Positions 24,492 through 25,812 of a stretch of DNA of 64,000 nt are shown one piece after another. Position numbers and translations under genes: made by a program. A model generated the notes under the pieces. The model was not told where the DNA came from and made no database searches. It saw only the letters and a list, made by a program, of their open reading frames with translations. The stretch is from Quercus robur. Its lineage: Eukaryota > Streptophyta > Magnoliopsida > Fagales > Fagaceae. Within the stretch, counting starts at the first letter, position 1, and each line of letters opens with the position of its first letter. Location of the stretch: NCBI RefSeq assembly GCF_932294415.1, contig NC_065539.1, forward strand, positions 34,474,001-34,538,000. The letters run 5' to 3'.

Positions 24492-25812
24492 TAAAATGCC
24501 TCTGAGAAATACGGTCACGTGGAACGCGATGATTCGTGGGTACTTCATAAATGGGAGATTTGTTGAAGCGGTCAATTTCTTCGATCAAATGCCTGAAAGG
24601 GATATTTTTTCATATAACACAGTGATTGATGGGATGATGCAGTGTGGGGATGTGGATGGTGCCAGAGAGGTTTTTGATGGGATGCCATTCAGAGATGTTG
24701 TTACTTGGAATTCAATGGTTTCTGGGTATATTCGCAATGGTATGATTTACAAAGCAGTAGAAGCATTTGATGGGATGCTGTTGAAAGACGTGATTTCATG
24801 GAATGCCACAATATTTGGATTAGGAGAAAATGATCAAGGTGACGAAGGTTTAAAGCTGTTTATTAGAATGAAAGAATCAGGTCCATCTGCAGATAAAGCT
24901 ACATTTACTAGTGTTTTGACAATATGTTCAGACTTGCCAACCTTACAGTTTGGAAAACAAACTCATGCAGACGTTATAAAATCTGGTTTTAATAGTTTCA
25001 TTTCAGTTTCCAACGCAATGATTACCATGTATGCAAGATGCGGAAGCATGCATTCTGCTCTGCTGGAGTTCTCTTCCATGTCAAGCCATGACATCATTTC
25101 ATGGAATTCTATAATATGCGGCTATGCACACCATGGAATTGGTGAAAAAGCCCTCGAGATGTTTGAAAGAATGAGATTAACTGATATAATGCCTAATCAT
25201 ATAACCTTTGTTGGTGTCCTATCTGCTTGTAGCTATGCTGGGTTGGTAGACCAAGGTAGGTACTACTTTGATTTCATGAAATCCAAGTGTTGTCTTCAGC
25301 CGGAAATTGAACATTATACATGTATTGTTGATTTGTTGGGGAGATTTGGACTCATAGATGAGGCAATGAACTTTTTAGATCAAATGAGAGCAGATGGAGT
25401 TGAAGTTCCTGCAAGTGTTTGGGGAGCTTTGCTAGGAGCCTGTAGAATTTACAAGAACATTGAGGTGGGCAAGATTGCTGGCGGGAGGGTTTTGGAAGTA
25501 GACCCTTGTAACTCTGGTGTGTATTTGATCTTGGCTGAATTGTTTTTGAGCGGTGGAAAGAGAGAAGAAGCTGAAAAAATTTGGGCTCAAATGAAAGAGA
25601 ATGGAGTCAAGAAGCAACCAGGATGTAGTTGGATTGAGGTAAACCGCAGTGCACATATATTTCTTTCAGGAGATAGTTCACACCCTGAGTTCAGTAGAGT
25701 CTGTTGTGTTTTAGACTTGATACATATGGAGTTGGAGATCAAAATTTCAGAATCAAATGCTGCTTCATTTCAACAGATAAAAAAAGTTCCATTTGATGGA
25801 CATTATGGGTGA
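24289..25812 (+). CDS. PPR protein, E class, with six motifs deleted (left paralogue)
   Basis: This single-exon gene encodes 507 residues. The N-terminus (MLFIFQALKLTQ, then K/S/T-rich) suits an organelle presequence. PPR motifs run from about residue 50 (S-type, 31 residues, repeated phrases TWNAMI, SYNTVI, TWNSMV), followed by longer P/L motifs, and E/E+ motifs at the end (GALLGACRIYKN, GCSWIEV). There is no DYW domain. Such proteins bind organellar RNA, one base per motif, and E-class members often serve C-to-U editing. Compared with the right paralogue, 186 residues are absent at W171-N172. That is exactly six 31-residue motifs, fused in frame at a TGGAA microhomology. It also has ~13 substitutions and one extra Lys near the C-terminus. 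Target RNA recognition must differ from the paralogue; it may be decaying. Confidence 0.9.
   Translation: MLFIFQALKLTQNLSLKLTKTLSLTNGNPKSFSQRHTTTTVPNLKPLNSKISSYMRNGLVEEAQKLFDKMPLRNTVTWNAMIRGYFINGRFVEAVNFFDQMPERDIFSYNTVIDGMMQCGDVDGAREVFDGMPFRDVVTWNSMVSGYIRNGMIYKAVEAFDGMLLKDVISWNATIFGLGENDQGDEGLKLFIRMKESGPSADKATFTSVLTICSDLPTLQFGKQTHADVIKSGFNSFISVSNAMITMYARCGSMHSALLEFSSMSSHDIISWNSIICGYAHHGIGEKALEMFERMRLTDIMPNHITFVGVLSACSYAGLVDQGRYYFDFMKSKCCLQPEIEHYTCIVDLLGRFGLIDEAMNFLDQMRADGVEVPASVWGALLGACRIYKNIEVGKIAGGRVLEVDPCNSGVYLILAELFLSGGKREEAEKIWAQMKENGVKKQPGCSWIEVNRSAHIFLSGDSSHPEFSRVCCVLDLIHMELEIKISESNAASFQQIKKVPFDGHYG

Follow-up and report, generated by a model that had tools for sequence, protein, structure and literature searches.

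Two tandem PPR genes differing by six motifs

The window analyzed here (the whole stretch of DNA, 64 kb, part of contig C6 of an oak genome of 786 Mb in 42 contigs) contains two tandem PPR paralogs, which lie about 13 kb apart and are both on the forward strand. The left gene (24289..25812, + strand) encodes a protein of 507 aa and the right gene (37346..39424, + strand) one of 692 aa; neither has internal stops, and they are designated as the short and long genes, respectively. The long protein is composed of ten S motifs, P1-L1-S1-P2-L2-S2, and an E motif, and the short protein of four S motifs, a chimeric P1, L1-S1-P2-L2-S2, and an E motif. The names and borders of the motifs in both arrays were assigned by hand. 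When the genome was searched with the genes, the two were found as near copies, and the other matches were short and partial.

Base-by-base alignment of the two coding sequences revealed a gap of 558 nt and, close to the C-terminus, a second gap of 3 nt. The larger gap, which corresponds to positions 37856..38413 (+) of the long gene and can be moved by at most 5 nt, spans 186 codons. Its length equals 6 × 93 nt, and both the frame and the motif register are kept in the short gene. The alignment therefore bore out the initial annotation, which had claimed an in-frame loss of exactly six motifs and a missing stretch of 186 residues, or 6 × 31.

The breakpoint codons are Trp-Asn in both places, namely Ser-Trp-Asn in motif 5 and Val-Trp-Asn in motif 11, as had been claimed. 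The sequence TGGAA is common to the two breakpoints, occurring at 37856..37860 (+) in motif 5 and at 38414..38418 (+) in motif 11 of the long gene, and the neighboring bases differ on either side. The short gene has one copy of TGGAA at the junction (24799..24803, +), where it encodes Trp171-Asn172: codon 171 is TGG (24799-24801), and codon 172, AAT, stands opposite codon 358 of the long gene, in agreement with the earlier claim that Trp171-Asn172 is joined to residue 358 of the right paralog. The junction had been placed at 24799..24804; TGGAA was correctly recognized, whereas the end was given one base too far because the exact microhomology is only 5 nt long. In the short protein, residues 168-202 (24790..24894, +) form a chimeric motif, in which residues 1-4 of motif 5 are fused to motif 11 (P1) from residue 5 onward. 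The Pfam PPR score of this motif is 27.6 bits, compared with 21.3 and 30.5 bits for its two parents; with this score and the register kept, the description of the product as a shorter but intact array holds. The junction region, TGGAATGCCACAAT, is a marker of the short gene.

Class of the encoded proteins

Pfam PPR scored 200.5 bits for the short protein and 308.2 bits for the long protein (cut-off 25), and the C-terminal E motif (PF20431) scored 59.3 and 58.6 bits, respectively (cut-off 27.3). The E+ motif (PF20430) was below its cut-off of 24 in both (13.7 and 13.6 bits), and a degenerate E+ remnant is possible in each protein; the DYW family was absent among the matches at E ≤ 0.001. Both proteins end shortly past the E motif. 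The N-terminal motifs, which are located ahead of P1-L1-S1-P2-L2-S2, are spaced by 31 residues, the long protein giving ten S-motif hits and the short protein four good ones. Both proteins belong to the E type of the PLS class of PPR proteins and carry a series of 31-residue S motifs at the N-terminus, and their gene anatomy is probably that of a specificity factor for C-to-U editing in an organelle. Membership of the RFL group, which is P-class with 35-residue motifs and no E domain, was ruled out by the 31-residue motifs and the E motif. The matches in the PDB were to PPR proteins that are synthetic and distant. When the genome was searched for COX1, a single match, below the cut-off, and no mitochondrial contig were found, and a search for the E motif in Pfam's control genomes gave no match.

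Duplication units and their surroundings

The short gene is located in duplication unit 1 (23952..33413, +), which is interrupted by an LTR element, and the long gene in duplication unit 2 (37027..41655, +). The LTR element (27936-32984), which is present in unit 1 only, is flanked by the 5-nt repeat GTGTG and has an LTR divergence of 0.019; judging from integrase motifs, the open frames on its reverse strand look copia-like, as expected of an LTR retrotransposon of that type. Because unit 2 has an empty site at this position, the duplication is older than the insertion.

The divergence between the units is 1.5-2.1% at 24231-26490, 9.6% upstream (23952-24230), 8.8% at 26491-27935, and 1.7% at 32990-33413. 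The zone of low divergence comprises the gene and 0.7 kb beyond it, with about 9% on both sides, and the low and high divergences of the 3' flank differ from each other with P about 1e-11. Such a patchy pattern could be a result of gene conversion across the gene. Methylation-driven decay was also considered for the 9% flanks and was unsupported, with a ts/tv of 1.4-1.7, which is not clearly raised.

The region between the units contains a high-copy repeat (33640-35705; 40 of 1,468 genomic candidates scored), the final ~350 bases of which recur at 36684-37034, just ahead of unit 2. Visual inspection showed no matching repeat on its two flanks, and it may therefore mark the duplication junction. 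Elsewhere in the window, a very young LTR-like element occupies 15029-21219, with 4 differences per 759 aligned bases between its terminal repeats and GTTTT on both sides. Inside, it carries long arrays of tandem repeats with units of 69 and 81 bases, which are open on both strands, and a 500-aa frame at 18857-20359 on the minus strand.

Proposed origin and predicted RNA target of the short protein

We consider it quite probable that a tandem duplication occurred and was followed by the loss of six motifs at TGGAA in the left copy. The duplication would have given rise to a pair of PLS-class, E-type PPR genes, and the left one would then have been shortened by 558 nt, from the W-N phrase of motif 5 to that of motif 11. 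The product would be an intact array with six motifs fewer and one chimeric motif and, judging from the motif score, would fold as a shortened solenoid.

The RNA code of each array was predicted from the fifth and last residues of the motifs with the PPR code as it is generally known. This code is in part backed by the portion of PMC8809517 used here, and S2 was set at −4 following the portion of PMC10482289 that was consulted. A prediction for each array had been suggested in the initial annotation, and the two codes indeed differ: read 5' to 3', the predicted code is Y U U U U G Y n U G U n U Y n n for the long array and Y U U U U n U Y n n for the short array. Both G-reading T5-D31 motifs (motifs 6 and 10) are lost with the block, which leaves the short array with 7 readable motifs out of 10, all of them predicted to prefer pyrimidines. 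Motifs 1-4 are predicted to shift from −19..−16 in the long array to −13..−10 in the short array, with the S2 end uncertain because of three extra residues and motif borders set by hand. The target of the short protein is predicted to be changed and less specific; the protein would read a pyrimidine-only site of lower information, with its N-terminal motifs six bases nearer the edited C. According to the part of PMC10482289 used here, N-terminal shortening of PPR56 abolished editing at one target and lowered it at the other.

Constraint on the short gene

Between the short and long genes, Ka is 0.011 and Ks is 0.044, giving a ratio of 0.25, and a model in which both copies are neutral was rejected (P 0.0006). 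A model in which just the short copy has been neutral ever since the duplication was only marginally disfavored, with P 0.018-0.064 according to how strongly the long copy is taken to be constrained. Among the 13 differing residues, a clear asymmetry in amino acid changes between the copies was sought and not found; the paralogs assign H316Y, E399G, and E185D to the short copy and I361V to the long copy, and the other sites are ambiguous. At the site of H316Y, 18 of 21 paralogs have H, while none of the 21 has G at the site of G399, and these two changes may reflect relaxed constraint on the short copy. We rate the odds that the short protein retains a function as slightly above even, with weak to moderate confidence.

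A serious, if doubtful, possibility is that the short gene represents a decaying duplicate, in which the deletion was a fixed accident, the frame was kept by luck, and the protein is functionless. H316Y and E399G, which lie where the paralogs agree or never carry the new residue, are consistent with such decay, as are the marginal result for short-copy neutrality and the several other local PPR copies in the genome that are visibly broken. However, the short frame is open across all 507 codons, the sole other length change between the copies is 3 nt, and the Ka/Ks of 0.25 also speaks for constraint. The short protein might instead be a decoy or weak regulator that competes with the long protein, having kept the C-terminal, site-facing part and lost selectivity. 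The retention of motifs 11-16 and the E motif, the absence of both G-reading motifs, and the reduced or abolished editing after N-terminal truncation of PPR56 (in the part of PMC10482289 used here) are in line with this role, which we nevertheless regard as improbable.

Direction of the length change

Comparison with paralogs within the same genome, which served as outgroups, strongly suggests that the left copy became short by deletion and not that the right copy became long by insertion. For each of the six S-array paralogs compared (L014, L016, L017, L021, L029, and L030), the long protein gives a better score than the short protein does, and the alignment of L030 with the long protein, which starts at residue 49 and extends over 617 columns at 40% identity, has no gap across the missing block. 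In a genome search that omits very common words, a 554-nt piece of the block had its own locus as the single match; because the block is seen once in the genome, it has no known donor. The block itself is matched by L029, L030, L014, and L021 at 33-38% identity, which favors a deletion, but this identity is lower than that of the flanks (46-50% and 38-43%), which may be raised against it. Also against it, L017, which has a shorter array, needs no large gap when aligned with the short protein, although it scores 866 there and 971 with the long protein. In addition, L029 has one motif fewer than L030, and the exact ancestral motif number is uncertain because the gapless match of L030 includes a recently gained motif.

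The opposite course, in which an ancestral short form was extended by six motifs to give the long gene, is very improbable. PPR arrays can indeed grow, as the one motif gained by L030 illustrates, and the array of L017 is short; however, a tandem gain should leave recognizable copies, whereas DNA identity among the motifs of the long array does not exceed 58% and the longest exact repeat within the long gene is 13 nt, the genome search gave no donor for the block, and the paralogs are collinear with it. An assembly error in the 558-nt gap or in the duplication itself, by collapsed repeats or by two haplotypes placed side by side, could be imagined from the small divergence of the gene region (~2%), but its chance is slight: collapse is unlikely because the long gene offers the assembler no exact repeat longer than 13 nt, the window has no N runs, the outer parts of the units are ~9% divergent, unlike haplotypes placed twice, the sequences beyond the units have no mutual match within the window, and the LTR element with its target-site duplication is in copy 1 alone.

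Microhomology and motif register

Given a deletion in the left copy, the extent to which its register could arise by chance was evaluated with all distinct possible deletions within residues 75-415 of the long gene (n = 381,959). Microhomology of at least 5 nt was present in 750 of them, and 97 of these (13%) were in register, i.e., multiples of 93 nt, compared with 2,837 of the 381,959 (0.7%) overall. Expressed the other way, microhomology of at least 5 nt accompanies 3.4% of in-register deletions and 0.17-0.18% of the others. TGGAA is present in 21 of the 97. Register and microhomology are thus not independent coincidences, because the conserved W-N phrase couples them, and the in-register shares of 13% and 0.7% make an in-register, in-frame loss about 17 times likelier given microhomology repair. 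Within the 93-nt unit, DNA conservation is highest in the W-N phrase, and break repair, unequal exchange, or slippage at this phrase would therefore readily give an in-register product. Since 653 of the 750 microhomology deletions are out of register, chance and selection both stay possible contributors, and selection for a working frame may have contributed additionally to the in-register outcome. Recombination between motifs, to which the loss had been attributed, is one possible route; an identical scar is expected from microhomology-mediated end joining and from replication slippage.

Comparison with known PPR systems

In rice RFL PPR genes, whole-motif deletion, duplication, and insertion with predicted target change have been described, and unequal crossing over is named by the authors (in the part of PMC5075784 used here). 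The oak pair is similar in that tandem PPR genes vary by whole motifs, but the RFL genes are P-class and form large, fast-evolving clusters, whereas the oak genes are a single PLS-class, E-type pair with 31-residue S motifs and a resolved 5-nt microhomology junction. In radish Rfo PPR genes, as far as the consulted sections of PMC2848758 go, a five-motif block was duplicated and intragenic recombination occurred; there, too, a cluster of tandem PPR genes changed by whole motifs, although the change is a block gain in P-class genes and not a six-motif loss. Rivals et al., as cited in those sections of PMC2848758, proposed that PLS (PCMP) arrays arose by internal motif duplication; these events are ancient and inferred, while the oak change is recent and lies between two copies. 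Uniform arrays of 31-residue S motifs are shared with synthetic S-type PPR proteins, which bind RNA via the fifth and last residues and are functional with nine motifs (in the part of PMC8809517 used here), but those proteins are designed, whereas the oak pair is a natural length change.

In the limited open-access literature searched (PLS motif loss or gain, oak tandem PPR genes, microhomology, and S motifs), no report of the pair was found. Motif-number change is already documented in restorer-like PPR genes, and the oak pair is a clean example of this known mode of PPR evolution. What is unusual is the combination of a young pair, an exact junction, a PLS-class E-type gene, and a reciprocal gain in the same genome. 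RNA editing factors are thought to acquire targets mostly through point changes. The pair, which is ~2% divergent yet six motifs apart, provides a direct test of whether one deletion re-aims a natural editing factor.

Motif-number changes elsewhere in the genome

The reciprocal gain is found in L029 and L030 (G000:C3:2970001-2990000), a tandem DYW-type PPR pair of 702 and 734 aa on contig C3. They are ~15 kb apart, their CDSs are 0.76% divergent, and they differ by one exact 93-nt tandem motif plus 3 nt. L030 has a 103-nt self-match at an offset of 93, indicating that the motif was duplicated at a 10-nt microhomology, GATTTTTGAT. Together with the oak short/long pair, this gain suggests that motif-number change continues in PLS-class genes too, beyond the restorer-like ones. 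When the long protein was aligned with the six S-array paralogs, the large gaps in the array were 32, 31, 30, 31, 93, 28, and 31 residues, all at or close to multiples of 31; further gaps of 28, 18, and 18 residues fall past residue 660, outside the array.

Local PPR pairs were surveyed in part (150 of 406 E-motif candidates scored, pairs chosen by eye), giving 18 comparisons of 17 distinct pairs, 7 of which have long, similar open frames in both copies. With the short/long pair, this makes 8 intact pairs, among which two internal CDS length changes of at least 12 nt were found; one is 93 nt and the other 558 nt long, and each is a multiple of 93. No multiple of 93 was found in the other 10 comparisons, in which one copy is broken or much shorter. 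The array type was classified for few pairs, L031/L032 having P-L-S spacing.

A more general idea, which we put forward as speculation with the odds against it, is that uniform S arrays are self-registering and evolvable, their W-N and F-D phrases at every 93 nt letting microhomology repair add or remove whole motifs. It would go with this, and is to our mind no less doubtful, that in-frame whole-motif changes are far commoner in S arrays than in P-L-S arrays, the period of which is ~303 nt. If so, the six-motif loss and the one-motif gain would be two products of one ongoing process, and editing factors could jump to new RNA sites in single steps. A three-copy PPR cluster (L037-L039, G000:C38:11981500-11998500) was also observed, with one long open frame and two copies carrying many frameshifts.
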